DNA of 64,000 bases from an uncultured Flavobacteriales bacterium (GTDB taxonomy: Bacteria > Bacteroidota > Bacteroidia > Flavobacteriales_G > Salibacteraceae). The position numbers and the translations under genes are program-made. Below the pieces are notes generated by a model. It did not search any database and was not told the origin of the DNA. It worked only from the letters and a program-made list of their open reading frames with translations. Location: assembly GCA_905479105.1 (NCBI GenBank), contig CAJQLE010000004.1, positions 62,001 through 126,000 of the forward strand, given 5' to 3'. Positions 1,681 through 57,977 of this stretch are shown here, piece by piece (position 1 is the stretch's first letter; each line of letters opens with the position of its first letter).

Positions 1681-2036
1681 ACCTCAAATATAAGTTTAAC
1701 CCCAAGGCTTATTTCAGTTTTAAGCGCTTTAAGTTTTTCTAATTCAGTCTTGTCGTTCATAGTTGTTCTATAGTTCGTAAAAATACAAATCGTAAACGCT
1801 CGTGCTTTTATTCAATTAAGGTATTAAAGCCAAAAAGCACAAGAAAATTACTTTGTCAAAATTGAGAATATCCCGAACCCCATGCTCAGGGAATAAGGAA
1901 AATAGTATAGCCAATGATTTAGATTGTCTGTGGCGTCTAAAAACGCAAATAGAGGCGCTCCTAATTGGATTCGTACCCAACCATTGTTTGTATCAATCGC
2001 AAGTCAATTACGCGATCCATCAAGTGTGGTGTAAAA
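1681..2036. other. Intergenic region, no feature recognised
   Basis: About 356 bp between the MORN-like lipoprotein and the 3' end of the endonuclease gene. A 68-codon open frame at 1853-2059 has no signal peptide, no domain I know and runs into the antisense of the endonuclease gene, so I do not call it. It could hold decayed coding DNA, but I could not reconstruct any protein. Confidence 0.4.
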
Positions 2037-3551
2037 CTATTCCTTCGCATGTTTGGTGAAAACCTTCTCTGCGCTTCCATCATCATACACATTGATTAAT
2101 AGTGTATTTGGTTTAAAGGTAGTTTCTCTGCCCATTATATTAAAGGTCTTAATGAGGGTTTTAGATGAAGTGTATTGCTTTATCCCCACAACAGAACTAC
2201 AATCTTCATTGAAAGATGTTTGTGCATCAATATTTGTCCAATTAGCTTTTGAATAGGCTGCATCATCTACATTAATACAAGTTAAATTTGGATTTCCGAT
2301 GGTGCTAAAATCTACTACTAGAGTATTGCTGCCATTTCTAAAGTCAAGACTTGTTAGTTGATTGTTTTCACAATAAAATTCAGTCAAGGCAGCGTTTAGG
2401 CTTAAGTCTAAACTTGTTAATTGATTATCCGCACCTTCAAAAAAAGTCAGAGCAATATTTGAACTTAAGTCTAATGCTGTTAGAGCATTAGCATCAATAT
2501 CCAAATAATTTAAAGCTGTATTTTGGCTTAAATCTAATGTTACTAGTTTATTCTGCTCGCAATCTAATCTAGTTAAGGTAGTAAAATCTTCAATTCCTGT
2601 TAGGTCGCTTATGTTAAGACTATTTACATCTAAATTTATTACAGTGTTAATATTAGCGGTAGTTACTGAGTCATCTAAAACAGCATCATATCCCTGTTTA
2701 ATTAATTCATTTTCAAAATTATCATCGGGCACATATGTTTGAGCCATCCATTTGACACTTTTAAGGTTACCGAAAATATAATCTGCTAGTTCAGGGTGGT
2801 CTATGTAAGGGTTTCTGTTTTTTTGAAACTCATCATAAATGATATTGTTTCTCCTTTTTTCCTTTGCGCTTACCTTATCTAATTTATTCCAAATCAACAG
2901 CGTTGTAAGTACTGAATGAAAAGGGCTTTGGTCGATGTTACTTCGAATGGTGTCATCAAGTTCTAAGTCAACGCCATCTTCTTGCTCATAACGAGTAGCC
3001 ATGTAGAAAATCATTCGGGCAACATCACCTTTCATTTCATCTCTTGGCTCAAAAGTCCATACATTAGAATCTGTAAAGCTGCCAGTATTCGAACCTAAGT
3101 ATTGAACATTATTGCAGCTTGAACAATTATTAAAAGCACGATTATTTCTTGACGAATTAATGGAGTTATAACATGGTCTTATGGCATGAACATCTGTACC
3201 AGGTCCTGCAGATGTCCCGAAATTACCTCTTGATTTAGCCCAAACGTGCTCTCTCGTCCACCCTGAACCACTATTGTACTCCTGCGCCCCATTAACTAAA
3301 GCACCGCTGTAAATCAACTCTACCAAGGTAGTATCAGAAGGGTCTCTATCGGTTAGTTTAAGGATGTCCCAAACGTCTGTTGATGAACTTGTGTAAGGGA
3401 ACTCAACATGACCTTTTATAATCTCATGTAAGGCATCTTTAAGGTCATTTCCTGTCTTATTCCGAGCATTATCATAATATCCAACTGGCTGAGCAAAGAC
3501 AACCTTAGCAAGTATTAAAATCAAAAAAACTAAACTGAATCTCATGTACAT
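2037..3551 (-). CDS. Secreted endonuclease I with leucine-rich repeats
   Basis: Extracellular DNA/RNA-degrading nuclease of the endonuclease I family (His-Me finger nucleases). Signal peptide about 1-20, starting at Met1 or, more naturally, Met3 (3545). The nuclease domain (about 22-270) has the family hallmarks REHVWAKSRG with the catalytic His and GTDVHAIRPCYNSINSSRNN with the conserved Asn/Arg. Residues about 310-430 are several roughly 21-residue leucine-rich repeats of the LDLSxNxxLTxL type. The last 40 residues (with NIMGRET and VYDDGSAEK) match a C-terminal tail found on T9SS cargo in flavobacteria, so export by T9SS is likely. The LRR block between nuclease and tail is the odd part. 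Confidence 0.85.
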   Translation of the reverse strand: MYMRFSLVFLILILAKVVFAQPVGYYDNARNKTGNDLKDALHEIIKGHVEFPYTSSSTDVWDILKLTDRDPSDTTLVELIYSGALVNGAQEYNSGSGWTREHVWAKSRGNFGTSAGPGTDVHAIRPCYNSINSSRNNRAFNNCSSCNNVQYLGSNTGSFTDSNVWTFEPRDEMKGDVARMIFYMATRYEQEDGVDLELDDTIRSNIDQSPFHSVLTTLLIWNKLDKVSAKEKRRNNIIYDEFQKNRNPYIDHPELADYIFGNLKSVKWMAQTYVPDDNFENELIKQGYDAVLDDSVTTANINTVINLDVNSLNISDLTGIEDFTTLTRLDCEQNKLVTLDLSQNTALNYLDIDANALTALDLSSNIALTFFEGADNQLTSLDLSLNAALTEFYCENNQLTSLDFRNGSNTLVVDFSTIGNPNLTCINVDDAAYSKANWTNIDAQTSFNEDCSSVVGIKQYTSSKTLIKTFNIMGRETTFKPNTLLINVYDDGSAEKVFTKHAKE

Positions 3552-3869
3552 TATTATTAAGTCCGAAAGTAAAATTTAACTTGGGGATAAGATAAAAGGT
3601 ATTTTGAATATAAAATTGAAAAGTTTCTGATCTATCTTTAACACGAAACACAGGGGACAAGAGCGTAGGTGCTGAAATATGGATAGGGTAAGTCAAAACA
3701 TTTATAATCGGGTATATGATGGCCGAAACACGGTTATGAAGCTCTGTCCCTGAGGGGCATAGGGAAGAGGCTTCATTGAAGTTGTTAGCTGGCTCAGAAA
3801 ATAAATATAGCTTTGAAATGCAATTGGTTATCAATCCAAGAGGGCCTATCAAATACCTTATCCATTATC
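3552..3869. other. Intergenic region with attC-like hairpin
   Basis: 318 bp with no credible gene. It holds one imperfect inverted repeat at 3738-3774 followed by GTTAGCT at 3784-3790, listed separately. A 115-codon antisense frame (3505-3852) lacks protein-like features and overlaps the endonuclease start; rejected. Confidence 0.5.
3731..3790 (+). repeat. Imperfect hairpin resembling an integron attC site
   Basis: The arms 3738-3750 (gaagctctgtccc) and 3762-3774 (gggaagaggcttc) pair except for an extrahelical base and a mismatch. A bulged, imperfect stem is typical of folded attC sites. A GTTAGCT at 3784-3790 is close to the attC R-box consensus GTTRRRY but fails one position. It lies 80 bp before the start of a small secreted-protein gene, as a cassette attC would. 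There is no integrase or second clear attC in the window, so this is only suggestive. Confidence 0.25.
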
Positions 3870-4292
3870 ATGAGACTTCTCCTCACCGTATTCTTCATGA
3901 CTTCAGTCGTCTGCTCGAATGCCCAAGATTGTTGTTCTCCAGTTTTTGGGTATAAACTGTTTGAGATCATATTTGGCGGAATAAACCATAACGATAACAC
4001 AGAGGGTTTCGTTGGTAAAGAGCACCAAGTTAAAAACAACTTAGCCCGAGTTGATTCATTAGACAACGTTTACATTTTTACAGATTGTCAGCCTATTACA
4101 GAATATGAAAAAGTGGGGCAGATCGACATTAGAGGCGGTAAATGGAATTTGGATAGTTACGAAGAAATGAAACAGAATTTAGTGAGAGACGCAAAAGCGC
4201 AGTACAATGATTTTGATGCGATTTTATTTAAACCTCCTGGGGGATCAATTTTTGACGATGGAAATGCGGTGCTAATAAAATTTAAATTCTAA
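3870..4292 (+). CDS. Small secreted protein of unknown function
   Basis: The start at 3870 rather than the upstream in-frame ATG at 3813 is chosen because it gives a clean signal peptide (MRLLLTVFFMTSVVCSNAQ). The mature protein is about 120 residues, begins DCCSPVFGYK and ends in a segment (VYIFTDCQPITEYEKVGQID...AILFKPPGG) whose alternation suggests an alpha/beta fold similar in feel to small heavy-metal-binding YbjQ-like domains; this is not a firm assignment. It is monocistronic and preceded by an attC-like hairpin, so it may be an inserted cassette. Confidence 0.55.
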   Translation: MRLLLTVFFMTSVVCSNAQDCCSPVFGYKLFEIIFGGINHNDNTEGFVGKEHQVKNNLARVDSLDNVYIFTDCQPITEYEKVGQIDIRGGKWNLDSYEEMKQNLVRDAKAQYNDFDAILFKPPGGSIFDDGNAVLIKFKF

Positions 4293-4385
4293 CAAACTTA
4301 TATGCGGTGGAAGTCATAATCATAAATAGTTAAATCGATTATAGACGCTTCCTCTTGCTTTGTTTTCTGCATTTTCATAATTCAT

Positions 4386-6158
4386 TCAAAAAGAGTTGGT
4401 TTTCACAGCTATTTCTGTAACGGATTTATTATTCGAGAAGTTAATCAACACAAAATACACACCATTTCTCCAGTCTAATGTGTTAATGTGATTACTGAAG
4501 CCTATATTTTCCCTATAAAAAATTACCTGACCCAATAAACTTACTACGGTCAAATTTTCTATATAATGAGAGCTTTTTATAATCATTTTAGATTGCAATG
4601 GATTTGGGAAAATCAAGATGTTTTCTTTTCCTTCAAAACTCTCCGCGACACCTATTGAAAGATCGTTACATGCATTGCTAAAAATTGTTCCTGAAGCATA
4701 CCTATCATAGGCAGGTATGGAAGCCGAACCCAAACTATTTGGAGTTCCAATTCCCGCCCATTGTACAATGGGCACGAAATCAGGTCTTTCGGCATAAGCA
4801 TAGCTTATATCGCTTAATGTATTTGTGCCTGTAGGGTGGATTACTCCTTTGTTATTATTGCTATATATAAAGTGGCCGACTCCTTGAATAGTGTAGTTGA
4901 CCAGACTGTAGGGAAAATTCGTATTCGGAATTTCATTACCCAATAAATTCTGATCTGGTGAATTATTTGCACTAAAGAAAACACCAAATCCTTCTGCTCT
5001 ATTTCTGAAAATGGTGTTATAGGGACCATTCGGCCCGTGTGAATCGTCAATAACAATATTCTGACAGATGTTTTGTTCAAACAAGTTAGCATAGGGATAA
5101 TTACCATGTAAAACCAGATCTCCTGAGGCATCATTTGGCGCTGAATCCCAATAAGGATCAAATGAATAATTATAGGCAAATACGTTTCCATTGGCACCTG
5201 ACTGGAGAATCATGGAATGGCGTAAATGTTCAAAGACATTGTTTTCAGCAAGACATTCGTTAGATGTAGCTTGAAGCATTACGCCATAGGCACGTCCATC
5301 GCCTCCATAATCAAAGCCATCATGAATATAAGATCCTGAAACATAAAGGTTAGAGGACTTTATAGCTTGAATATGACTAAAAGTGCAGTTTTCAGATTCT
5401 ATGCCCATGACCCAGCAATTGACTGCATAAGAGAAAGAAACATTGCTAGATTGCTCTGGTGCAGTGTCATCGATGCGGTGTATCTTAAGGCATTCTAAAC
5501 CAACATTTTTAACTGGAACAATTTTCGATACATGCGGTGAACGGGAAATATCAAAATCCATCCGCAGCGGAGATTCGAGTACGATTTTATTACTGACAAT
5601 GGTTTTAACTTCAGCAATTTGACCCACCGTATTTTTTGCCCACAAAGAGGTCACTAGATCGCTATCAATCTGAACAATTTGCAACCAATCTCCTGCTGTA
5701 AATACAGCAGGATCCGATGCGATTACAAAACTACTGTCCTTAATAGCTGATTCTATTAGTGAATTGGTGTCAGCGTTGATTGAATTACCTTGAATATTAA
5801 AAGAATGGCCAGTGCCGCCTAAGTTCATCGTGAAAGTAGTGTTATCAGCACCTTGCCCTCGAACAATAATATTACTTGGAATATCTATCGTGTTATTAAA
5901 AAGGAAATTTCCAGAAGGGAAATTCAGAATTGCACCAGGTCCAACTATAGAAGATATTACATTGTTAACAATGGAATCATTAGGAGCAATGCCATCACCA
6001 ACAACGCCTTCAGCTTGCATATCCACCAATTGAAAACCAACTGTTGTTGTGTCTCTCAAACCAGCGAGGGTCCAATCAACACTGCGAGAAGGAGGTAAGG
6101 TTTGTGAAAACCCACCTACGGCAATTAAAAAAAAGAATAAAGAATGTATTCGCTGCAT
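4386..6158 (-). CDS. T9SS-exported right-handed beta-helix protein
   Basis: The start is placed at 6158 (MQRIHSLFFFLIAVGGFSQ), which gives a signal peptide; the frame stays open to 6275 but those residues are not signal-like. The central region (about 60-470) has the short N-, G- and S-rich repeating strands of a pectate-lyase-type parallel beta-helix (for example NIIVRGQGADNTTF, SFAYNYSFDP-like rungs). No catalytic motif of a known lyase is evident. The last 80 residues (from IFPNPLQSKMIIKS to the end) are a type A T9SS sorting domain. Likely a surface or secreted polysaccharide-binding or -cleaving protein; the substrate is unknown. Confidence 0.8.
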   Translation of the reverse strand: MQRIHSLFFFLIAVGGFSQTLPPSRSVDWTLAGLRDTTTVGFQLVDMQAEGVVGDGIAPNDSIVNNVISSIVGPGAILNFPSGNFLFNNTIDIPSNIIVRGQGADNTTFTMNLGGTGHSFNIQGNSINADTNSLIESAIKDSSFVIASDPAVFTAGDWLQIVQIDSDLVTSLWAKNTVGQIAEVKTIVSNKIVLESPLRMDFDISRSPHVSKIVPVKNVGLECLKIHRIDDTAPEQSSNVSFSYAVNCWVMGIESENCTFSHIQAIKSSNLYVSGSYIHDGFDYGGDGRAYGVMLQATSNECLAENNVFEHLRHSMILQSGANGNVFAYNYSFDPYWDSAPNDASGDLVLHGNYPYANLFEQNICQNIVIDDSHGPNGPYNTIFRNRAEGFGVFFSANNSPDQNLLGNEIPNTNFPYSLVNYTIQGVGHFIYSNNNKGVIHPTGTNTLSDISYAYAERPDFVPIVQWAGIGTPNSLGSASIPAYDRYASGTIFSNACNDLSIGVAESFEGKENILIFPNPLQSKMIIKSSHYIENLTVVSLLGQVIFYRENIGFSNHINTLDWRNGVYFVLINFSNNKSVTEIAVKTNSF

Positions 6159-7098: not shown

Positions 7099-7119
7099 AT
7101 GAAAAGAACTTCTAATAAC

Positions 7120-7147
7120 AAAAAAGCCGTCCTTTCAAAAGGACGGC
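7120..7147 (-). terminator. Intrinsic terminator of the lipoprotein gene
   Basis: Stem gccgtcctt / aaggacggc (7126-7147) with a T6 run on the minus strand, 35 bp downstream of the stop of the gene at 7182-8003 and just upstream of tRNA-Pro. Confidence 0.85.
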
Positions 7148-7181
7148 AAATGTAATATTTCTTTAAATAAAAGCGGAAGAA

Positions 7182-8003
7182 TTAATAAAGTCCTCCTCTA
7201 ATTTCTGAAACTGCTGCTCCCAACTCATCTACGTCATTGGTGCTGAACTTCTTAGCGTTATTTCTTATTTTGGAAATAGGATCACTTATGGCACTTAGTT
7301 TTTCTGAAACTGCTTTCATCTCGGCATTGTCTTTAAAAACATCACACATATGCAGCACACTTGAGTAAGCATCGCACATGCTCCATACTCCTAGTCTCAC
7401 ATCCATATTGCTTAAGTCATTTTTTGATGTTTGACAAGCAATGTGCAAACCTTCTACCCATCCACCAACTACCATGAATGTCGCATATTGCGCTCGTTCA
7501 TCTGAAAAGAGCTGATCCTTTGCTGTTAGGTACGCTTTGGTTAATAGAACTGATTTATTAATGGTAGTATCCTCAGATGCCATCTTTTCAATCAAGGTTT
7601 GATTAAAGGCTTCAGCAATACCTAAAGCTCCAGCGGTCTTCATTAATCCTTCCATTCTCGACATTGCACTTTGGTTTTGTCCAAATGCAGAGCAATAAAC
7701 CATATCACTTCCTATAGCACCTATTCCTAATCCCTGCTTTGAAGATCCACTGAAACTTTTACCTGCAGAAAGCATTGCTGATTCTGAAAATGAAAATCCA
7801 GATGAATTCATCGTTTCATAAAGCTTTGCTGTTAACTCAATATTGGTTTTAATGATTCCGAGTTCAGCTAGATAGCCATCAGGAAGTGTTTCAGCTCTCT
7901 CGAAGTTATATTTAGGGGCAGGAGCTTCTTCCCCTCCACAGGCACTTAATAAGGACAAAGCTGAAACGGACAATGCCAATAGAGATAAGTTGGTTCTTTT
8001 CAT
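7182..8003 (-). CDS. Lipoprotein of unknown function
   Basis: Lipoprotein signal with lipobox LSAC (Cys22) followed by GGEEAPAPK, so it is membrane-anchored at the cell envelope. The mature part is largely helical, with small-residue-rich segments (for example GKSFSGSSKQGLGIGAIGSD) and four scattered cysteines, and looks like a helical bundle. I do not recognise a named family. It has its own terminator at 7120-7147 and is divergent from the SpoIIE gene at 8230. Being outside both tRNA-repeat brackets, it is probably part of the resident chromosome. Confidence 0.75.
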   Translation of the reverse strand: MKRTNLSLLALSVSALSLLSACGGEEAPAPKYNFERAETLPDGYLAELGIIKTNIELTAKLYETMNSSGFSFSESAMLSAGKSFSGSSKQGLGIGAIGSDMVYCSAFGQNQSAMSRMEGLMKTAGALGIAEAFNQTLIEKMASEDTTINKSVLLTKAYLTAKDQLFSDERAQYATFMVVGGWVEGLHIACQTSKNDLSNMDVRLGVWSMCDAYSSVLHMCDVFKDNAEMKAVSEKLSAISDPISKIRNNAKKFSTNDVDELGAAVSEIRGGLY

Positions 8004-8130
8004 TTTAGTAAGAATCGATTTAGCAACGAAATTAATGTGTCAGCATAAATTGACAAGGAAAACTTATTAAGCTTGTTCATATTTCAATGTGAATAGATCA
8101 ATCTATTTTGATGACTCTACTGTGAAAGAA

Positions 8131-8160
8131 AAAATCCCTGCCCAATAAAGACAGGGATTT
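8131..8160. terminator. Orphan hairpin next to a tRNA-Ser fragment
   Basis: aaaatccctg (8131-8140) pairs with cagggattt (8152-8160). It lies between two divergent genes, where no terminator is expected, and directly abuts the tRNA-Ser 3'-end copy at 8166-8178. The real tRNA-Ser at 10549 also has a hairpin directly beyond its 3' end, so this may be the former terminator of that locus. Confidence 0.6.
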
Positions 8161-8165
8161 AAGGG

Positions 8166-8178
8166 TGCGGAGAGAGGG
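8166..8178 (-). repeat. 13-bp copy of the tRNA-Ser 3' end (att-like)
   Basis: tgcggagagaggg is identical to 10547-10559, which spans the tRNA-Ser discriminator and acceptor strand, in the same orientation. The two copies bracket 2.4 kb containing one gene. The length is short but a chance match to a tRNA 3' end is unlikely. Confidence 0.5.
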
Positions 8179-8187
8179 TATAAATTT

Positions 8188-8195
8188 TATATTTG
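8188..8195 (+). promoter_or_regulatory. Putative -7 promoter element (TATATTTG)
   Basis: Perfect match to the Bacteroidota -7 consensus TAnnTTTG, 34 bp before the ATG of the SpoIIE gene. The -33 region would fall on or next to the tRNA-Ser fragment. Confidence 0.5.
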
Positions 8196-8229
8196 ACCGA
8201 ATCTGTCGACATTAAACCTATCCAATTTT

Positions 8230-10179
8230 ATGAATAGTAAATTTCAAATTAATCTTCTTACTGTGATCCTAAGTGCTTGTTTTTTTTGTTTTTCTAAGAA
8301 CCTGAAATCAGCCAATTCTGATTCTTTGAAAATGAGTGTTGCACTTGACTCAATTAGTTCAATTTATGATGATGCAGGGATGTCCGCTTATGAAGTTAAG
8401 GAAGCTTTTAAGGACATGCATATCCAGTTTGAGGGGGATTGTAAAACGTATTTAGAAATAGAGGAAAAATATTTTCTAGCGAACATTTTTATGGATCACA
8501 ACTTGGACGAATTTGTCTGGAAATATGCTCAGGACATTGAAATAGAATCTAGAAAGATTAATTATAAACATGGTTTGAGCGGTGCTTATAGTCTCTACGC
8601 ATATATTCATCATTTGCGCGGTGAACATGAAGAAGCTATCAAATACGCTTCACAAAACCTGGAGTTTTATTCTAATAAATCCACGGAAACGGATAATCTA
8701 ATTTCGGCATTGATAATGAGATCCATTGTGGAAACAGATACTGCTTCAGAGATTAATTATCTGCATCAAGCCTTAAGTGTTGCCATTCAAGCGAAGGATA
8801 CTAGCGCTATGAACTCTGTTTATGGCAATATAGCATTCGACTTTATGCAGTTTCGTCAGTTAGATTCAGCATCAATTTATGTTAAAAAAGACTTTGAAAC
8901 AGCGCAAATTTTGAACACCAATAAGGCTTATGCTTATTCATATTGGCTAAAAGGTAACTTGGCAGTATTACAAAAGAATTACGATTCAGCTTATACCTAT
9001 TTTGAGAAGGCGTTAGCTTATAAAACAGACTCTACGAGCAATTTATCACTGGTGAGTTTAAATATGATAATACAGCTTTCTCAAAAAAAGAAGGATTACA
9101 AAACAGCTTTGAGATTAAACAAGAGAAAAGCTTACTATGAGGATAAAAATAATGAGCATTCTAAAATAGAATTGAAGCAAATTTTTGATGAAGTTGCTTA
9201 CTTGAATGAGAAGAAAATCGAACAGCATGCAAGTATTCAATTGCTAGAGGCTGAAAAATTTCAATTCAAGCTTATCCTTATACTCACAGGTTTAATGATT
9301 TTGACACTCGTTGTGTTTATGATTCAGCAATTTAGGATCAAGAGACTGTTGGTAGAGAAGAATAAAGAAATTAGTGCTTCCGAAAAAGAAATAACACAAA
9401 AAAATAAAGAGTTGACAGACTCTATTGCTTATGCCAAGCGGATACAAAGTTCATTGCTCCCAACAAACAATAAATTGGCGTCAACTTTATCTGAACATTT
9501 TGTTTTATATAGTCCAAAAGATATTGTTTCTGGCGACTTTTATTGGCTTACCACTGTCGAAGAATCAGTGCTGTTTGCAGTTGCTGATTGCACTGGACAC
9601 GGTGTGCCTGGGGCATTGGTTAGTGTGGTATGCTACAATAGCTTAAATAAAAGTATTAATGAACTTGGCTCAAGCAAGACCGCTGATATTCTGAACCGAA
9701 CCCGAGAATTGGTTATCTATGAATTTGAAAAGTCTAATGAATCAGTTTCTGATGGAATGGACATTGCACTTTGTGCCTTGGATAAAGAAGGTGTTCTCAG
9801 ATTTTCAGGCGCTAATAGTGGATTGTTAATTTTAAGAAATGATGATATTTTGGAATTTAAAGCAGACAAAATGCCAATAGGTAGCTTTCCAGTCAAATCG
9901 AGTTTTAAGGAGATTAACATTCCATTAGAGGATGGCGATATCATTTATTTGTGCTCAGATGGTTTTTCAGATCAATTTGGAGGGGAGGCAGGCAAAAAGA
10001 TGAAAAAATCAAAATTTAAATCTCTTTTACTTTCTATAAAAGATATGCCAATGACTGATCAGCAATCATTTTTAAACAATGCGCTAAACCAATGGAAAGG
10101 TCAATATGAACAGGTTGATGACATTTGTGTAATGGGTATAAAATTTAAGAAGGGCGCAAATCAATGGCTAAACGCTTAG
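8230..10179 (+). CDS. TPR sensor with SpoIIE/PP2C-type phosphatase domain
   Basis: A signal-transduction protein: the extracytoplasmic N-terminal part senses something and the cytoplasmic domain dephosphorylates Ser/Thr, by family analogy an anti-sigma antagonist. Signal peptide about 1-28; helical TPR-like repeats about 60-320; one transmembrane helix about 345-366; coiled coil about 370-400 (EKEITQKNKELTDSIAYAKR); SpoIIE domain about 410-645 with metal-binding motifs GDFYW, VADCTGHGVPGALVS, DGMDIALCALD and CSDGFSDQFGG. Full length for this common Bacteroidota architecture. No anti-sigma antagonist gene lies next to it. It is the only gene between the two tRNA-Ser 3'-end copies and could have arrived with them. 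Confidence 0.88.
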   Translation: MNSKFQINLLTVILSACFFCFSKNLKSANSDSLKMSVALDSISSIYDDAGMSAYEVKEAFKDMHIQFEGDCKTYLEIEEKYFLANIFMDHNLDEFVWKYAQDIEIESRKINYKHGLSGAYSLYAYIHHLRGEHEEAIKYASQNLEFYSNKSTETDNLISALIMRSIVETDTASEINYLHQALSVAIQAKDTSAMNSVYGNIAFDFMQFRQLDSASIYVKKDFETAQILNTNKAYAYSYWLKGNLAVLQKNYDSAYTYFEKALAYKTDSTSNLSLVSLNMIIQLSQKKKDYKTALRLNKRKAYYEDKNNEHSKIELKQIFDEVAYLNEKKIEQHASIQLLEAEKFQFKLILILTGLMILTLVVFMIQQFRIKRLLVEKNKEISASEKEITQKNKELTDSIAYAKRIQSSLLPTNNKLASTLSEHFVLYSPKDIVSGDFYWLTTVEESVLFAVADCTGHGVPGALVSVVCYNSLNKSINELGSSKTADILNRTRELVIYEFEKSNESVSDGMDIALCALDKEGVLRFSGANSGLLILRNDDILEFKADKMPIGSFPVKSSFKEINIPLEDGDIIYLCSDGFSDQFGGEAGKKMKKSKFKSLLLSIKDMPMTDQQSFLNNALNQWKGQYEQVDDICVMGIKFKKGANQWLNA

Positions 10180-10635
<456 letters not shown>

Positions 10636-10652
10636 ATTTGAAATTGGGAGCG

Positions 10653-10660
10653 CAAAAGTA
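10653..10660 (-). promoter_or_regulatory. Putative tRNA-Ser promoter -7 element (TACTTTTG)
   Basis: On the minus strand TATACTTTTGCG lies 18 bp upstream of the tRNA-Ser 5' end and matches TAnnTTTG. The same 12-mer context occurs upstream of the SRP RNA (37701), supporting use as a strong stable-RNA promoter. Confidence 0.65.
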
Positions 10661-10690
10661 TAAGAATCATGAAATAATTTTAAGTTTTAG

Positions 10691-11113
10691 CTATAATCTT
10701 TCAATAACTACTTTATTTCCTTTCAATTTATGTTTCCATTCATTTTCTGGAAATATTCTCTTCGCCCATTTAAGATAGACTTTAGTGCGCTTTGTAGGTC
10801 CATTATCAGACTCATTGTTTTCTGTTGGTTCTCCTGAAAACTCGTAGTGATGAACCTTTATATTTTTGGTTTTAAAGTCTTGAATGATCTCAAGTATGGT
10901 CATCATCACTGAATAGAACTCGCCTTTATTGGTCAATACATATTCCTCTCCTTCGAATTCATCGTTCAAAACGCCAAAAACTATATTGGCTGAGAGAATA
11001 TCAGATTGTTTCCTTCCTAAACGCACCTCATAGAGAATATCTGCATCGGTAGTAAAAAAGTATACACCAGCCGATGGGATTGAAGGAGCAATATATTTAA
11101 AGACCTTTGGCAT
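10691..11113 (-). CDS. Conserved-looking hypothetical protein
   Basis: 140 residues, no signal peptide or membrane segment, so cytoplasmic. Pattern: beta-strands with FGVLND in the middle, a helix (YSVMMTILEIIQDFKTK), then a beta segment and a C-terminal basic helix (KWAKRIFPENEW) ending KVVIERL. This resembles small alpha/beta proteins of unknown function that occur in Bacteroidota next to tRNAs or toxin-antitoxin loci, but I cannot name the family. Divergent from the TerB-DnaJ gene. Confidence 0.6.
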   Translation of the reverse strand: MPKVFKYIAPSIPSAGVYFFTTDADILYEVRLGRKQSDILSANIVFGVLNDEFEGEEYVLTNKGEFYSVMMTILEIIQDFKTKNIKVHHYEFSGEPTENNESDNGPTKRTKVYLKWAKRIFPENEWKHKLKGNKVVIERL

Positions 11114-50916: not shown

Positions 50917-51563
50917 CGCGATATAAGTTAGTTAATAGTATTAACAGTTTCGGCTTACTTATTGTTTAATAGCAATCATTCGTATAGGATCAAAGCTCAA
51001 CAACTTATGCGGTTCTGTCTCCGCCATTTTCTTCATTCTTTTTGGTTGATGGGCTTATGACTTTAATCCTCGGTAACCATGTCAAAGTTTCACATACCTC
51101 ACGATGGTCTGTCTAGTTGAATGTACAAAACCTGAATAAAAATGGATGGACTATGAATGCGGGTCCTTAGGTCGAATTACTATTGCCTTTTTCGAATAAT
51201 CGATTTACATACATCTATCGTTCTTCTGCCCAGTCATTTCTAATGACAATTGATGTTTTAAAATAAAATTGAGTAAAATGACACTTCATATTGGGTCAAA
51301 AAAAACCGATGTGCTTTAAGCGACCAGGGTAAATAATCTAGGAATTGACAACACCTACTTTGGATCTACATCATGAAACGTGTAAAACGTATCGTATTCT
51401 AATCCTGTCGGATTTTGATAATCCACGTTCAGTATGAATTTAAAAAGGCGTTTCATGATTTCCATTGTTGATTCTGTCAACGAGCGCATTTGATATGGTT
51501 GCTAGTGCTTGGTGAAAAATTTTTGCGTCTATAGCTTTATCTTTGTGGAGGCCATCTTAATAA
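50917..51563. other. Gene-poor stretch upstream of the sigma factor
   Basis: About 650 bp. On the minus strand two short frames look mildly protein-like: 51355-51489 (44 aa, ends ...LEYDTFYTFHDVDPK) and 50959-51036 (25 aa, ends KLLSFDPIRMIAIKQ). Both are too short to support as genes; they may be gene remnants. No RNA or repeat was recognised. 50339-50614 on the other side of the small genes is likewise empty. Confidence 0.4.
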
Positions 51564-51572
51564 GGCAATTTC

Positions 51573-52118
51573 ATTTCAAATTCCAAAAATATAGCAAGAT
51601 TTCGTGAGGTTTATGAAACATATTCAAGCATGGTATATAATGTTTGCCTAAATTATTTACACAATACCCAAGATGCAGAGGAAGCAACACAAGATGTATT
51701 TGTTCGTATTCACGGTTCCCTAAATTCATATTGTCAGAAAGCAACACTAAAGACATGGATATATAGGATTGCTGTTAATCATTGCTTTGATAGGGTTAAA
51801 GCGAACAAAGCTCAGAAGCGCTTTGCACAGATTCAATCATTATTTGGAATAGGAAAGAATGAAATCACTCCGGTTGATTTCAATCATCCAGGTGTAAAAC
51901 TCGAAGATCAAGAGGCTGTATCTGAGATTATGAAGGCGATACATGCCTTGCCTGAAAATCAGAAAACAGCCCTCATTTTAAAATCCGTTGAAGGTTTGTC
52001 TCAAAAAGAAATTGCGGCTGTGATGGAAATCGGAGAGAAGGCTGCAGAATCTCTTTTATCCCGTGCTAAGGTCAATTTGAAAAGAATGTTGAACGATAAA
52101 GAAGGAAACGTGTTTTAA
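51573..52118 (+). CDS. ECF sigma factor with non-canonical start
   Basis: Extracytoplasmic-function sigma factor that directs RNA polymerase to its own regulon. Region 2 (SSMVYNVCLNYLHNTQDAEEATQDVFVRIH) and region 4 (ALPENQKTALILKSVEGLSQKEIAAVMEIGEKAAESLLSRAKVNLKRML) are intact. Met at 51630 is inside region 2; the same frame continues upstream (ARFREVYETYSS) with family-like sequence to 51564. No ATG, GTG or TTG is available there, so I place the start tentatively at ATT 51573. Internal Met 51630 would lose part of helix 2.1. First gene of the operon that includes MbnP/MbnH. Confidence 0.85.
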   Translation: MSNSKNIARFREVYETYSSMVYNVCLNYLHNTQDAEEATQDVFVRIHGSLNSYCQKATLKTWIYRIAVNHCFDRVKANKAQKRFAQIQSLFGIGKNEITPVDFNHPGVKLEDQEAVSEIMKAIHALPENQKTALILKSVEGLSQKEIAAVMEIGEKAAESLLSRAKVNLKRMLNDKEGNVF

Positions 52119-52139
52119 AGTCGTCTAAATATCACAACC

Positions 52140-52415
52140 ATGGAAAGAACAGAAGAGTATATAAAACAGCAGCTTAAAAAGATCAATCGGGTAGAGCCAT
52201 CTCCATTTTTATGGACTCAACTGAAAGCCAAGCTGGAATCAAGCTCAGAGGCCACTTCTTTCCAACCACGACTGGCTCTTGCAGCCATGACTTTGCTGGT
52301 TGTAATAAATGTATCAGTAATAAGCTTTTCAATGAGCGGAAATGACGGGCAAGAATCTGCTGTGCTGCTGAGCGAATTGAATATTAAAACTTCAAATCAA
52401 TTGTATAGTGACTAA
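52140..52415 (+). CDS. Small single-pass membrane protein, probable anti-sigma factor
   Basis: 91 residues: a charged N-terminal helix (MERTEEYIKQQLKKINRVEP) with segment PFLWTQLKAKLE, a transmembrane helix about 45-65 (ALAAMTLLVVINVSVISFSM) and a short extracytoplasmic tail. Position directly after an ECF sigma gene, 22 bp away, and the N-in topology fit a minimal anti-sigma factor. No zinc-binding HxxxCxxC motif. Its end overlaps the CpxP/Spy-like gene (GTG start). Confidence 0.7.
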   Translation: MERTEEYIKQQLKKINRVEPSPFLWTQLKAKLESSSEATSFQPRLALAAMTLLVVINVSVISFSMSGNDGQESAVLLSELNIKTSNQLYSD

Positions 52416-52872
52416 GTCTAAACTGTTTCAATGGACAACGCTTTTGTTAGCAATACTCAATATCATTTTGATTGCTTTTGTATTAAATAAGCCGCATCAT
52501 CGAGGACAGCATAGGTCAGATGGTAACAAGCGTATGATCATTGAGAAATTGCAATTTGACGAAGAACAAGTTGTGCAATATGAAGCGCTCATTCACGAAC
52601 ATCGTCATGCTGTATCTAGTCTAGACAAAGAAATCATGCAGGGGAAGTATGAATTGTATAGTTTGTTTAATCATGACGATGAGTCCGAAAAAGATGCTTT
52701 TATAGAGTTCATAATCGAAAAGCAAAAGTCCATTGAAGAAGTTCATTTGAACCATTTCCAACAAATCAAATCGTTGTGCAGGACTGATCAGCAGGACCAA
52801 TTTGAAAGTATGACTGAAGAGCTTGCGCAGATGTTTGCCAATCATCCCAAGCCAAATCCCGAGCATCATTGA
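52408..52872 (+). CDS. CpxP/Spy-like periplasmic sensor protein
   Basis: GTG start at 52408 overlaps the upstream gene by 8 bp. A signal anchor about 8-25 is followed by an almost all-helical periplasmic domain rich in His, Glu and Gln (LQFDEEQVVQYEALIHEHRHAV, then helices with LDKEIMQGKYELYSLF). This resembles Spy/CpxP/ZraP-type heavy-metal-resistance proteins, which sense misfolding or metals. There is no perfect LTxxQ motif. Overlaps the MbnP-like gene by 4 bp. Confidence 0.75.
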   Translation: MTKSKLFQWTTLLLAILNIILIAFVLNKPHHRGQHRSDGNKRMIIEKLQFDEEQVVQYEALIHEHRHAVSSLDKEIMQGKYELYSLFNHDDESEKDAFIEFIIEKQKSIEEVHLNHFQQIKSLCRTDQQDQFESMTEELAQMFANHPKPNPEHH

Positions 52873-53558
52873 GGTTATTCGTTTTAATTAGCATTGTTTT
52901 AATGCTTCCGACTTACTTGGAGGCTCAGGAAGCGAAGCAACAAATCGTCATTTCATTTTCAGCAGAATTCGGTGATCATGAAATTCAATTGGGTGAACCA
53001 TACGATTGGGAAAATGAGACAGTATCCATCACTGCATTGAAATACTACATTAGTAATTTGAAATTGAAGTATCAGGGGCAAGTTGTTTATCTAGATAATG
53101 CTCAAGCCCAACTGATCGATTATTCCATTCCCGAATCGAAGCAGATTCGATTGGAAATTCCTGAATATGCCAAGTTTGATGAGGTTAGCTGCAATTTGGG
53201 AATTGACAGTGCGATGAATGTCAGTGGCGCGTTGGATGGAGATCTGGATCCGACCAAAGGCATGTATTGGACATGGCAAAGTGGATACGTCAATTTTAAG
53301 GTGGAAGGTTTTTCTTCGGCAATTGCTTCAAAAGATGGGAAGTTTATGTTTCATCTGGGAGGGTACTTGTCTCCCAACTTGGCGGTTCAATCATTGAATT
53401 TCTCAGTTGATTCAATGTCTGAAATCAATTTTCTTTTGGACTTAGATCAACTCCTGAGGACGATTGATTTGAATGAAAACTCTTCTGTTATGTCGCCCAG
53501 CTTGAAAGCTGTGGAGCTATCTGAGTCAGTGGCTCAATCAATCCGTATTCATGAATAA
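52869..53558 (+). CDS. MbnP-like periplasmic protein
   Basis: TTG start overlapping the previous stop (attga); signal peptide MRLFVLISIVLMLPTYLEAQ supports it. MbnP family signature: DLDPTKGMYWTWQSGYVNFK (residues 126-145) with Trp134 and Trp136, and NLGIDSAMNVSGALDGDL before it. In characterised MbnP-MbnH pairs, the di-heme enzyme MbnH oxidises an MbnP tryptophan to kynurenine, creating a copper-binding site. The partner gene is directly downstream with an 8-bp overlap. That the same chemistry occurs here is inference. Confidence 0.85.
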   Translation: MRLFVLISIVLMLPTYLEAQEAKQQIVISFSAEFGDHEIQLGEPYDWENETVSITALKYYISNLKLKYQGQVVYLDNAQAQLIDYSIPESKQIRLEIPEYAKFDEVSCNLGIDSAMNVSGALDGDLDPTKGMYWTWQSGYVNFKVEGFSSAIASKDGKFMFHLGGYLSPNLAVQSLNFSVDSMSEINFLLDLDQLLRTIDLNENSSVMSPSLKAVELSESVAQSIRIHE

Positions 53559-54573
53559 AAGAGCTGTGGTCATATTGTTTATAGTGGGCTTAGTCAGTGT
53601 CTCCTTTCTTGTTCCTGAGGAAAATAAAGTGCTGAAGTTTAATTATCCAGAATCATGGCCAAAGCCGGTCTACGATTTTGAGTCTAATCCTCTGACCCAA
53701 GCAAAAATTGATTTAGGAAGGAAACTGTTTTACGACCCAATTTTATCAAAAGACAATATGATTTCTTGTGCTAGTTGTCATTTGTCATACACAGCCTTTA
53801 CACACGTTGATCATGCGTTGAGTCATGGCGTTGGAGACAGTATTGGAGTGCGAAATTCGATGAGCTTAGTGAATATGGCTTGGAGTAAGCATTTTATGTG
53901 GGATGGAGCGGTAAATAATCTCGATGTTCAAGCTTTGGCGCCAATTTCAAATGAGGATGAGATGGGTGAGAATATTGTCTCGGTCATCCAAAAACTTCAA
54001 GACAATAATGAGTACCCAGCACTCTTTTCAAAGGCTTTTGGTGATACTGTAATTTCTTCACAAAACTTGCTCAGAGCGATTGCCCAGTTTGAATTGACAT
54101 TTATTTCAGCCAATTCAAAATACGACAAGGTTATGCGTGGTGAAGATCAATTCACTGAACAAGAGGCGAGAGGATATGCTTTTTTCAAGGATAAATGTGC
54201 TTCCTGCCACAAAGAACCTTTGTTTACCAATGGAGAATTTGAAAACAACGGTTTAGAAATAGATCCCTCGTTATACGATTTGGGTCGGTTTGGAATCACT
54301 CACCGATCGTTAGATTCATTGAAGTTTAAAACACCTTCTCTTCGAAATGTAGAGTTCAGTCAGCCTTATATGCACGATGGTCGTTTTACCTCGTTGCATG
54401 AAGTGATGAATCATTATTCTGAAGGAATTCATTATTCAAAAACAGTCTCAAAACATATCGGAAGAGGTATAGCTTTAACAGAAGATAATCGGGTTGATGT
54501 TGTCGCTTTTATGCTCACCTTAACCGATAAAGACTTTCTTTTCAATCAAGATTTATCGTTCCCAAGAAAATAA
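53551..54573 (+). CDS. MbnH/MauG-like di-heme cytochrome c peroxidase
   Basis: Signal anchor about 5-22. Two heme c motifs: CASCH at 73-77 and CASCH at 216-220. Family motifs GRKLFYDPILSKDN, SMSLVNMAWSKHFMWDGA, and FSQPYMHDGRFTSLHEVMNHYSEG with the distal-ligand region are all present. MauG/MbnH enzymes use H2O2 to generate high-valent hemes that oxidise tryptophan residues of partner proteins. Its only obvious partner is the MbnP-like protein overlapping by 8 bp. An ordinary H2O2-detoxifying peroxidase is the alternative. Confidence 0.9.
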   Translation: MNKRAVVILFIVGLVSVSFLVPEENKVLKFNYPESWPKPVYDFESNPLTQAKIDLGRKLFYDPILSKDNMISCASCHLSYTAFTHVDHALSHGVGDSIGVRNSMSLVNMAWSKHFMWDGAVNNLDVQALAPISNEDEMGENIVSVIQKLQDNNEYPALFSKAFGDTVISSQNLLRAIAQFELTFISANSKYDKVMRGEDQFTEQEARGYAFFKDKCASCHKEPLFTNGEFENNGLEIDPSLYDLGRFGITHRSLDSLKFKTPSLRNVEFSQPYMHDGRFTSLHEVMNHYSEGIHYSKTVSKHIGRGIALTEDNRVDVVAFMLTLTDKDFLFNQDLSFPRK

Positions 54574-54632
54574 TTTGCATGAAGCGAAGGATTAAGAGAA
54601 ATAATCAGTCTAAGTAAGAAGACAATTAAAAT

Positions 54633-55985
54633 ATGCACCAATTCAATCGACTCCTAATCATTGCAGTTTGCTCTCTTTTTGCAAGTAATGTTTTTGCGCA
54701 AATCGAGCCTGCTATTACTTCATGGTTGCAAAACACCACTGAAGTTGGTAGTTACTATATGCAAGGAAATTCCACAGCCATTTCAAACAATATTCTCGTG
54801 AATGCACAGAGTGTAGATTATTCGAATGATTGGGTTTATGTCACCACCAATGGGATTCCTTCTTATCCGACAGGTCCATTTTTAGACGGCAATCCTTCAC
54901 AAGCCGAATCTCAATCAGCAATATTTAAAATTCCGTTGGTTCCATCTATGAACTCTGGAACATTAACTGCAACAACTCCTGGAAATATTGGAGTATTCAT
55001 TAATGGCGTTGCATTATTCGATTGGAGAGACGGAGTAGCATGGAATCCAAATACAAGCTCACTTTGCGGTGGTCCAGGAAATCCACCTTGCCCAGGTGGA
55101 ATGGGTGCTCAAATGGATTGGAATCGAGATGCTGTTCCTGCAGAGAAGGAAGGGTTTGATTGCTCAAAAGGTCATCCTGCAATGGGGAATTATCATCACC
55201 ATCAAAATCCTTCAGCATTTAAATTGGATGAAGAAGTGGTTTCGACAATTTGTAATCTTTATGATGCAGATGGACTTTACGCCATTGACAGCACCATGCA
55301 TTCACCATTGATCGGATTTGCTTATGATGGTTTTCCCATTTACGGAGCTTATGGCTTTACAAACACCGATGGAACCGGTGGAATTTCAAGAATGAAGTCA
55401 AGTTATCAATTGAGCAGTTCGGCAACACGGTTAGGCGGACCTGATGTGGATGCAACCTATTTTGCTGGCTACTTCAAAGAAGATTACCAATATGTGGCTA
55501 ATGCTGCCAGTGACTATTTAGACGAGCACAATGGTCGATTTTGTGTTACTCCTGAATATCCAGAAGGCACTTATGCTTATTTCACCTCGGTAGATGAAAA
55601 TTGGAATTCTACTTTTCCTTATGTTGTTGGACCAACATTTTACGGAAATGTAGTAGTGACCAACGTGACAAGCATTTCAGAAGCTGTAACCAATTATATT
55701 TCGGATCAATCGACTGGGTTAGGTTGTGGTCTGAGCGAACTTAGTGTTTCCATTTTTCCAAATCCAGCCTCAGATCTGATTGCAATTCAGATCAATGGTT
55801 TAATTAGAGAAGATGCGGAAATAGGCCTGTTTGACTTAACCGGTAAATTGATCAGATCCAACACCATTAAAAGCGGAAGTACTATCTCGTACATTGATAC
55901 TAAAGTCCTGAAAAGTGGATTATATATCGTTTTAATTACATCGAATGAAGTGAATGAAAGACAAACTATTGTTATTCAGCATTAG
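54633..55985 (+). CDS. YHYH-domain T9SS-exported protein
   Basis: Signal peptide ends near VFAQ. Residues about 100-340 form a YHYH-domain protein: the eponymous motif reads YHHH at 187-190 (GNYHHHQNPS), followed by HSPLIGFAYDGFPIYGAYGF and LDEHNGRFCVTPEYPEGTYAYF, which are typical. A clustered-His motif could bind a metal. The C-terminus (IFPNPASDLIAIQING...) is a type A T9SS sorting domain. Fifth downstream gene of the ECF sigma operon, 59 bp after the peroxidase. Confidence 0.83.
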   Translation: MHQFNRLLIIAVCSLFASNVFAQIEPAITSWLQNTTEVGSYYMQGNSTAISNNILVNAQSVDYSNDWVYVTTNGIPSYPTGPFLDGNPSQAESQSAIFKIPLVPSMNSGTLTATTPGNIGVFINGVALFDWRDGVAWNPNTSSLCGGPGNPPCPGGMGAQMDWNRDAVPAEKEGFDCSKGHPAMGNYHHHQNPSAFKLDEEVVSTICNLYDADGLYAIDSTMHSPLIGFAYDGFPIYGAYGFTNTDGTGGISRMKSSYQLSSSATRLGGPDVDATYFAGYFKEDYQYVANAASDYLDEHNGRFCVTPEYPEGTYAYFTSVDENWNSTFPYVVGPTFYGNVVVTNVTSISEAVTNYISDQSTGLGCGLSELSVSIFPNPASDLIAIQINGLIREDAEIGLFDLTGKLIRSNTIKSGSTISYIDTKVLKSGLYIVLITSNEVNERQTIVIQH

Positions 55986-56352
55986 ATTCGTTGGTTAAAT
56001 TGCTCGAGAAGCCTCGTAAATTGAGGGGATTTTTTGCTCTTGACTTATTGTGATTTGAGAATGAGGAATGTCTAAATCGTTAATTTGAAGAATCTAGAAT
56101 ATTGATCAAGGGCGCGAGTATATGTTTGAAATTGGGCGGATTAACAGGTTTTCAGATGTATCAATGGCATAGTTTCTTCTTTAACGGAATGGGACAGCGT
56201 TCAGATTGAATTTTTAAAGACTCATAGCTATTGTAAGTCTCTGAAAAAGGAGAAATTTGGAGGTTAAAGGTAGAAAAACCTTGAGCGTTTAATTCAATCC
56301 AAGAGGTGAGTTCACAATCCCAGGAATAAGTGATCATAAATGAGCACAAGAG
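55986..56352. other. Intergenic region
   Basis: 367 bp. A weak hairpin (cctc/gagg) followed by T6 near 56011-56035 may end the YHYH operon. A 62-codon minus-strand frame at 56161-56349 has no recognisable features and would begin only 3 bp from the ligT-like gene start. Nothing else seen. Confidence 0.35.
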
Positions 56353-57518: not shown

Positions 57519-57977
57519 CTAAGGTTGAATCTTTAATTTGTTAATCGCTTTAACTGGTCCAGGGCATTTTTGCTGGTGACAAACCAGGCAGTTTTGCAGC
57601 ATGATGTTGAATGCTTCGGTTTGATTTTCTGCTGTTTGCTCAAACAAAGAGTAGTTATCCAAAAACGCTCCAGCCATAGCTTGATAGGTGTCGTCAATTT
57701 TTTCTGGCTCTGTGGCATGAGCAGTTTGAATGCGTTTAAACTCTTCGTAGAAATCAGTCTTCACTTCATACCCTTGATTGATCGAATCTTTTACGAGTTT
57801 CATCTCATCATACATTTTGCGCATCAATAGGGCGAGCTCGCTGCGCTCAACACCATTTACAATGGTCATTCCTGTTTCAGAAAGTTCTTGTTTTTCTTCT
57901 TTTGGCACATCCTTGGTTGCCTCGTTGCATGACCATGCAAAGGAGATGAGAAGGAATGCTGTAAATAATTTTTTCAT
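57519..57977 (-). CDS. Lipoprotein with a single heme c motif
   Basis: Lipobox FAWSC (Cys17). The mature part is helical and ends with CLVCHQQKCPGP (residues about 130-141), a CXXCH heme c site, in the position typical of four-helix-bundle cytochrome c'-like proteins, so it is probably an outer-membrane or periplasmic electron carrier. It is followed on the same strand, upstream, by two exported proteins of unknown function; operon structure is uncertain. Confidence 0.8.
   Translation of the reverse strand: MKKLFTAFLLISFAWSCNEATKDVPKEEKQELSETGMTIVNGVERSELALLMRKMYDEMKLVKDSINQGYEVKTDFYEEFKRIQTAHATEPEKIDDTYQAMAGAFLDNYSLFEQTAENQTEAFNIMLQNCLVCHQQKCPGPVKAINKLKIQP

Follow-up and report, generated by a model that had tools for sequence, protein, structure and literature searches.

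Within a 64,000-nucleotide stretch of contig CAJQLE010000004.1 from an uncultured Flavobacteriales bacterium of the Salibacteraceae (assembly GCA_905479105.1), referred to here as the window, we analyzed six co-directional genes on the plus strand (positions 51573–55985). They encode an extracytoplasmic function (ECF) sigma factor, a one-pass membrane protein, a histidine-rich protein, MbnP, the di-heme protein MbnH and a YHYH-domain protein with a type IX secretion system (T9SS) tail. The source genome comprises 2.79 Mb in 7 contigs and the genes lie on the contig designated C4. Every reading frame was confirmed. The genes overlap by 8 bp (one-pass protein/His-rich protein), 4 bp (His-rich protein/MbnP) and 8 bp (MbnP/MbnH), and are separated by gaps of 21 bp (sigma factor/one-pass protein) and 59 bp (MbnH/YHYH). 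A preliminary description made from the letters alone had proposed six same-direction genes with 4- to 8-bp overlaps at three junctions, and the frames and overlaps are present as proposed. Its gene identities and the idea of a single sigma-controlled unit are well supported by conserved order and recurrent short junctions, and Trp134/Trp136, two CASCH sites, the YHHH motif and the T9SS tail were all found at the expected places. The six genes almost certainly constitute one operon.

The fourth gene (52869–53558) starts with a TTG codon overlapping the preceding stop and encodes a member of the MbnP family (PF20243, 3.9e-40, 138.2 bits at a cut-off of 27). The predicted model of the protein (predicted local distance difference test score, pLDDT, 92.9) matched the solved MbnP structure 7l6g with a Foldseek E-value of 2.5e-9, and VIA comparison gave a Z-score of 17.9 and a root-mean-square deviation of 2.7 over 206 aligned residues, the next structure reaching a Z-score of 4.7. 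7l6g was recovered by fold alone; when solved structures were searched by sequence, neither MbnP nor alignments A2 and A6 gave a credible relative. Met132, Trp134, Trp136 and His162 are each invariant in 66 of 66 MbnP rows, window included, and Met208 is kept in 59 of 66. The two tryptophans form a conserved WxW signature (53268–53276) which is the candidate kynurenine site. The closest MbnP found belongs to the same genus (G012, L037).

MbnH is encoded at 53551–54573 and belongs to the MauG family of di-heme proteins (CCP_MauG, 1.4e-55). The CASCH motifs of its two haem c sites (53767–53781 and 54196–54210) are kept in 71/71 rows, which comprise 70 rows from the 80-locus set described below plus the window and were chosen with labels that still took T9SS-tail-only proteins for YHYH proteins. 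The best solved relative of the MbnH profile is 6e1c, which ranks fourth when the single sequence is used for searching. Tyr289 (54415–54417) aligns with a tyrosine in 6e1c and with a methionine in the peroxidase 3o5c, and all 71 rows carry tyrosine here. In cytochrome c peroxidases the axial haem ligand is methionine; a tyrosine at the sixth-ligand position presumably acts as haem ligand, as in MauG. From other organisms MbnH is known to oxidise a tryptophan of MbnP to kynurenine, completing a copper site, and a 2021 PNAS paper reportedly deals with the kynurenine in MbnP. The window pair resembles MbnP/MbnH of Methylosinus trichosporium (7l6g, 6e1c) in the MbnP fold, the WxW signature, the tyrosine matched to that of 6e1c and the arrangement as adjacent overlapping genes, but differs in lying under both NCBIfam cut-offs and in its linkage to a YHYH gene and an ECF module. 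A 2013 paper still terms the MbnP/MbnH pair mysterious (PMC3621798). As to a methanobactin operon, no MbnB-family gene lies beside the window MbnP/MbnH; the genome's one match sits in a bufferin-like locus of contig C5, and MbnC was not searched for.

Several other arrangements of these families were noted. The C5 locus (L197, G000:C5:56500-63500, positions 2033–4871; G000 is the source genome) is an operon which we take to be bufferin-like. It encodes an ECF sigma factor, a small Cys-containing protein, a precursor in which KCGEGK-type motifs are repeated and the MbnB-family protein (PF05114), and contains one more, overlapping gene. Elsewhere in that genome two tandem MbnH-like genes come after another MbnP gene, which has a motif resembling a T9SS tail close to its end (L063, G000:C1:482000-498000, 7885–11001); in L074, likewise, MbnH-like genes follow an MbnP whose T9SS tail is matched by Pfam. 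Two tandem MbnP genes without adjacent MbnH are located at L062 (G000:C4:447000-463000, 7100–8711); similar MbnP genes recur in L064–L066, with an MbnH-like gene alongside in L066. In L096, L097, L098, L055 and L054, a gene for about 300–325 aa comes after an MbnP–MbnH pair that lacks YHYH; it gave no Pfam match in the two cases scanned (L096, L098).

The last gene (54633–55985) encodes a protein with a hydrophobic, signal-like N-terminus (residues 4–26), a YHYH domain far above the family cut-off (PF14240, 3.4e-56, 190.7 bits at a cut-off of 25) and a Por_Secre_tail T9SS sorting domain (55752–55976; 4.7e-13, 49.7 bits at a cut-off of 27). This fusion to a T9SS tail and the tie to MbnP/MbnH distinguish it from the YHYH domain as such. 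The YHHH motif (Y187, H188, H189, H190; 55191–55202) is conserved: in the 79 rows of alignment A5, which include 5 T9SS-tail-only proteins and were also used for the YHYH structure, H181 is kept in 76, H188 in 76, H190 in 75 and D232 in 77, and His223 is conserved as well. In the predicted model (pLDDT 82.5) the tail matched the T9SS C-terminal domains 8qb1 (1.5e-4) and 8glk (1.1e-3) in Foldseek. In the Foldseek list, which the tail led, no solved enzyme extended over the YHYH part, and the matches of a second structure comparison were likewise filled by the tail. Because the tail dominated both searches, the empty result for the YHYH part does not indicate a new fold. The YHYH part does resemble predicted viral YHYH proteins. 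For YHYH domains a jumbo-phage survey predicts a Zn site of three His and one Asp and hydrolase activity (PMC7824862); no tested function for YHYH was found in the literature searched. The suggestion of the preliminary description that the YHYH protein is the surface component is borne out with respect to the T9SS tail, and we tentatively regard it as a surface metalloprotein, at somewhat less than even odds.

Upstream of MbnP, the sigma factor gene (51573–52118; Sigma70_r2 1.7e-14, Sigma70_r4_2 1.6e-14) is followed by a gene for a 91-aa protein with a single hydrophobic stretch at residues 42–68 (52140–52415), a putative CnrY-like anti-sigma factor. It gave no NCBIfam match and its Pfam matches were all below cut-off; in relatives, too, a short protein of similar kind is encoded directly 3' of the sigma gene. 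The third gene (52408–52872) encodes a His-rich protein of 154 aa with 12 His, apparently membrane-anchored through hydrophobic residues 4–31, of the Metal_resist/LTXXQ type and putatively a periplasmic metal sensor. The protein and its relatives match Metal_resist in 8/12 and LTXXQ in 3/12 cases at E-values up to 0.1, the best Metal_resist value being 4.2e-6. A search of solved structures with the sensor sequence and its alignment A3 gave no credible relative. Conserved residues are His65 (34/35 rows), His116 (27/35) and Cys124 (27/35). The three genes together recall CnrYXH of Cupriavidus metallidurans, where likewise an ECF sigma factor, a short one-pass protein and an N-terminally anchored periplasmic Metal_resist-like protein are encoded together (judged by hydropathy for the window proteins). 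In the model given in PMC4598750 and PMC7689651, CnrX binds metal in the periplasm and so causes CnrY to let go of CnrH, which activates the sigma factor. The unit described here differs in including MbnP, MbnH and YHYH; its conserved sulphur residue is Cys124, in an alignment that contained no CnrX sequence, and not a methionine such as the metal ligand Met123 of CnrX, and the family match is weak. Because none of its six genes encodes resistance-nodulation-division (RND) efflux components, we do not class the unit as a Cnr system, and suppose that genes 1–3 would work like one. A CnrYXH-like metal switch is quite probable. For gene 3 the earlier label of a CpxP/Spy-like protein gives way to that of a putative CnrX-like sensor: we read the protein as membrane-anchored and working together with genes 1 and 2 rather than as a free chaperone, the family match being weak.

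We determined how far this gene order is conserved in other Bacteroidota, as the preliminary description had proposed. An alignment-based scan of genome contigs for YHYH yielded at least 404 loci, of which the best 80, ranked by likeness to the window YHYH, were evaluated; this ranking favours the gene context of the window. T9SS-tail-only proteins were not counted as YHYH, 129 YHYH frames were labelled and neighbours up to 1.7 kb apart were counted as one chain. All six families occur in order on one strand in 27/80 loci, another 38 have MbnP–MbnH–YHYH in chain and 15 show neither pattern. The outcome that would have refuted the preliminary proposal, a gene order not shared by relatives, was not obtained. 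Since up to 1.7 kb is allowed between neighbours, some six-family loci hold an extra gene, such as a 530-aa gene, sulfatase-like by similarity, between MbnH and YHYH in L143. Where 1 kb or more of sequence precedes YHYH (76 loci), MbnH lies in the upstream chain in 68 and MbnP plus MbnH in 65. The six-gene loci belong to Flavobacteriales (13), Saprospirales (4) and Chitinophagales (2), the rest being less resolved; Fluviicola chungangensis MAH-3 has the full operon (L166), with a second YHYH-type gene inserted between MbnH and YHYH. Two are labelled as Ignavibacteria (L183) and Candidatus Kapaibacterium (L117), and the others with a stated phylum are Bacteroidota. In a second set of 38 YHYH loci picked from genome searches all six families were present in 8, window included. 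The two sets overlap (L106 and L037 are apparently the same 5189-base contig) and were not summed, except for junction counts and the oxidase count over 118 loci given below. Median junctions pooled from both sets were −8 bp for anti-sigma/sensor (n = 41), −4 bp for sensor/MbnP (n = 41) and −4 bp for MbnP/MbnH (n = 96), near those of the window, and +47 bp for MbnH/YHYH. On a tree of MbnH built from 39 of the 93 linked rows and all 21 unlinked ones, with 7/121 intermediate candidates left out, linkage to YHYH changes 4 times as compared to 17.7 times in shuffles (0/500 as low), and because there are only 4 changes the linkage appears to have been gained few times.

MbnP and YHYH also co-occur at the level of genomes. 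In 60 relatives a strong MbnP and a full YHYH were both present in 19 and both absent in 36 (p = 8e-11; E-value thresholds of 1e-15 for MbnP and 1e-40 for YHYH, set after the lists had been seen). In 296 genomes of the phylum both were present in 12 and neither in 257 (p = 2.5e-8; search thresholds of 1e-12 and 1e-20). Co-occurrence is thus well beyond what independence would give, although these p values take no account of shared ancestry, which inflates the association. Neither family was found in 14 control genomes.

The sensor was found in 19/60 relatives. Eight sensors adjoin MbnP genes (G000, G008, G011, G012, G015, G028, G034 and G049); in G008 the sensor is convergent with the MbnP set (L050), and in G011 the contig ends after MbnH, so that the position of YHYH is not covered. 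The remaining 11 are located in sigma/anti-sigma/sensor modules elsewhere, one of them in a different order (L196). Sensors occur in 13/19 genomes with an MbnP/YHYH set as compared to 6/41 without (p = 6e-5); with linked genomes excluded the figures are 6/12 and 5/40 (p = 0.011). Since 6 of the 11 genomes with an unlinked module carry the MbnP/YHYH set on another stretch, the unlinked modules suggest control of the set in trans, the p value being modest. In L193 (1–3524) an EF-hand gene and two small YHYH genes come after a sigma/anti-sigma/sensor module, and the stretch read contains neither MbnP nor MbnH.

The identity of the sigma factor assigned in the preliminary description holds; the start stated there, 51573, is an ATT codon. 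An in-frame stop lies at 51561 and no ATG, GTG or TTG follows until the ATG at 51630. The window protein aligns with 19 sigma factors from relatives' loci at 33–46% identity, and conservation of sigma region 2 begins upstream of 51630. Start candidates are ATT at 51573, ATA at 51594 and ATG at 51630, the last of which would cut into region 2. Because there is no standard start before conserved region 2, either an unusual start codon (ATT or ATA) or a sequence error is implied. A weak −7 box candidate, TATCTTTG (51538–51545, plus strand), sits 35 bp before the ATT codon and matches TANNTTTG, the −7 box consensus of Bacteroidota housekeeping promoters. The motif was not convincingly enriched over 45 regions upstream of sigma genes (6 observed, 3.2 expected, 8/100 shuffles as high); these are 44 regions from the two overlapping locus sets plus the window, chosen by sigma label alone, so that some, e.g. 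L089_12, lie outside this operon. A weak terminator-like hairpin 3' of the YHYH gene (56012–56026, plus strand) is at chance level, as were generic promoter and terminator scans in general (3 terminator-like sites in the region, 3.3 expected). Further downstream, on the minus strand (57519–57977), a small protein with one CxxCH motif gave no family match above cut-off.

Neighbouring genes provide some copper context. In 7/118 loci (L185, L117, L171, L038, L076, L127 and L152) a gene for a multicopper oxidase is found no more than about 0.5 kb from YHYH; the oxidases of L038, L117 and L185 were Pfam-checked and have a T9SS tail, those of L127 and L152 are fragmentary at 238 and 251 aa. More distant oxidases in L178 (2.7 kb), L141 (4.3 kb) and L078 (4.1 kb, other strand) were excluded from the seven. 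AhpC-TSA/Redoxin-family genes, which we read as SCO-like, were observed in 5 loci at 4 bp to 6 kb (Pfam-checked in L178), and a Cu2_monoox_C T9SS protein in L174. The Pfam scan of neighbours covered 50 chosen proteins, many of which are housekeeping or unrelated. In PMC9426467, MbnPH-like genes are listed in CruR-headed operons that also carry copper-homeostasis genes. The copper response proposed earlier gains support only indirectly, from the MbnP fold, the MbnH-type tyrosine and the multicopper oxidases beside some copies, and copper is probably the metal. For peroxide as the signal nothing speaks beyond MbnH being a relative of peroxidases.

From gene order, families, folds and conserved residues we infer that the six-gene unit may serve the response to a metal in the periplasm, most probably copper, with a CnrYXH-like switch driving MbnP/MbnH and a surface YHYH protein; we put the probability of this reading at about 0.5. 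Each step of the mechanism below is a proposal. The one-pass anti-sigma factor would keep the sigma factor inactive at the inner membrane, and the His-rich protein would act on it as a membrane-anchored CnrX-type sensor. Upon a change in periplasmic metal the sigma factor would be freed and transcribe its own operon and, where unlinked, also MbnP/MbnH/YHYH genes elsewhere. MbnH, with two haems and a tyrosine at the sixth-ligand position, would use peroxide to convert a WxW tryptophan of MbnP to kynurenine, completing the copper site, and the T9SS would export YHYH to the cell surface, where it would serve as the outer component that binds metal. We lean, by about 60:40, toward induction by metal excess as in CnrX over induction by starvation as in CorA/MopE.

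Under starvation the same operon would serve copper acquisition, with MbnP and the surface YHYH protein scavenging copper and passing it inward, in the manner of CorA/CorB and MopE/SACCP of methanotrophs. There, too, a surface protein is encoded with a MauG-like di-heme protein: CorA and MopE are described in PMC3912023 as copper-repressed surface copper-binding kynurenine proteins co-transcribed with MauG-like di-heme proteins. The T9SS tail placing YHYH at the surface and a TonB receptor gene 3' of the cluster in L117 fit this reading. YHYH belongs to another Pfam family, and copper repression is described for the methanotroph proteins. The proposed activation of sigma by metal-bound CnrX (PMC4598750 and PMC7689651, as above) speaks against acquisition. 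A TonB receptor was moreover identified in L117 only, L171 having a gene of matching size and place that was not scanned. We consider acquisition rather unlikely as the function, and likewise that YHYH is a secreted metal-dependent hydrolase which the sigma switch and MbnP/MbnH merely control or metallate. The latter would agree with the Zn site and hydrolase predicted in the jumbo-phage survey, conserved His181, His188, His190, His223 and Asp232, viral YHYH proteins matching the model and a sulfatase gene adjoining YHYH in L071 and L160; yet that survey offers a prediction only, and the tail-led Foldseek list lacked a solved enzyme over the YHYH part.

A peroxide or envelope-stress operon, with a CpxP/Spy-like gene 3, a di-heme peroxidase, MbnP and YHYH as structural partners and no copper site made, is improbable. 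CCP_MauG membership and the LTXXQ (CpxP/Spy) matches of 3/12 sensors are in line with it, but MbnH has tyrosine in place of the methionine of true peroxidases in all rows, WxW is invariant in MbnP, and gene 3 encodes an anchored protein directly 3' of the putative anti-sigma gene. That the linkage was simply inherited by descent and has no joint function would accord with the few gains on the MbnH tree. We regard this as very improbable, as order and overlaps persist where MbnP shares just 27–41% identity with that of the window, and unlinked sensor modules co-occur with the MbnP/YHYH set all the same. A bolder proposal, which we rate as rather improbable, is that MbnH has two clients and, besides MbnP, oxidatively modifies the exported YHYH protein or supplies its copper via MbnP.

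Several observations weigh against the metal-response system with a CnrYXH-like switch. MbnP reached 40.8 bits against the NCBIfam equivalog TIGR04052 (cut-off 140), suggesting a distinct subfamily rather than the equivalog itself, and MbnH reached 225.5 bits (8.7e-67) against TIGR04039 (cut-off 362.85); because both lie below these cut-offs, oxidation of the window MbnP by MbnH is inferred, and we think it probable. The His-rich window protein itself is below cut-off for Metal_resist (E = 1e-3, 19.7 bits, cut-off 29.2), no CnrX structure was among the sequence matches of the sensor profile to solved structures, and exchange of Met123 for Cys in CnrX, according to PMC7689651, abolishes the Ni response, Cys being the conserved sulphur residue of the sensor here. 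The sensor was not matched in 6/19 genomes with an MbnP/YHYH set. A sigma factor is in chain in 26 of the 60 loci with at least 4 kb upstream, YHYH stands alone in chain in 15 of the second set of 38, and in the 296-genome sample 10/22 YHYH genomes lack a strong MbnP and 17/29 MbnP genomes lack YHYH. No convincing promoter motif was common to the 45 regions upstream of sigma genes as compared to block shuffles, and the copper-type neighbours are associations in a small minority of loci. The ranking of the 80 loci and the shared ancestry that all of the p values disregard point the same way.

In summary, MbnP/MbnH and CnrYXH are known as parts, and what is new, within the literature searched, is their union with a T9SS YHYH protein; no description of this gene set was recognised among the papers listed there, judged by title and beginning of abstract, with few subscription papers included. 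If MbnH did have two clients, YHYH would found a new class of copper enzymes at the cell surface, governed by an ECF sigma circuit of its own, which would be the first function for the YHYH domain. MbnP/MbnH pairs are widespread, and the operon ties them and YHYH to a putative sensor, its sigma factor and a route of export. Because it brings a probable metal sensor and its sigma switch together with a pair for copper-protein maturation and a secreted surface protein, a possible role in copper handling is directly testable, with inducing signal, modified residue and surface client all accessible in one strain, Fluviicola chungangensis MAH-3.

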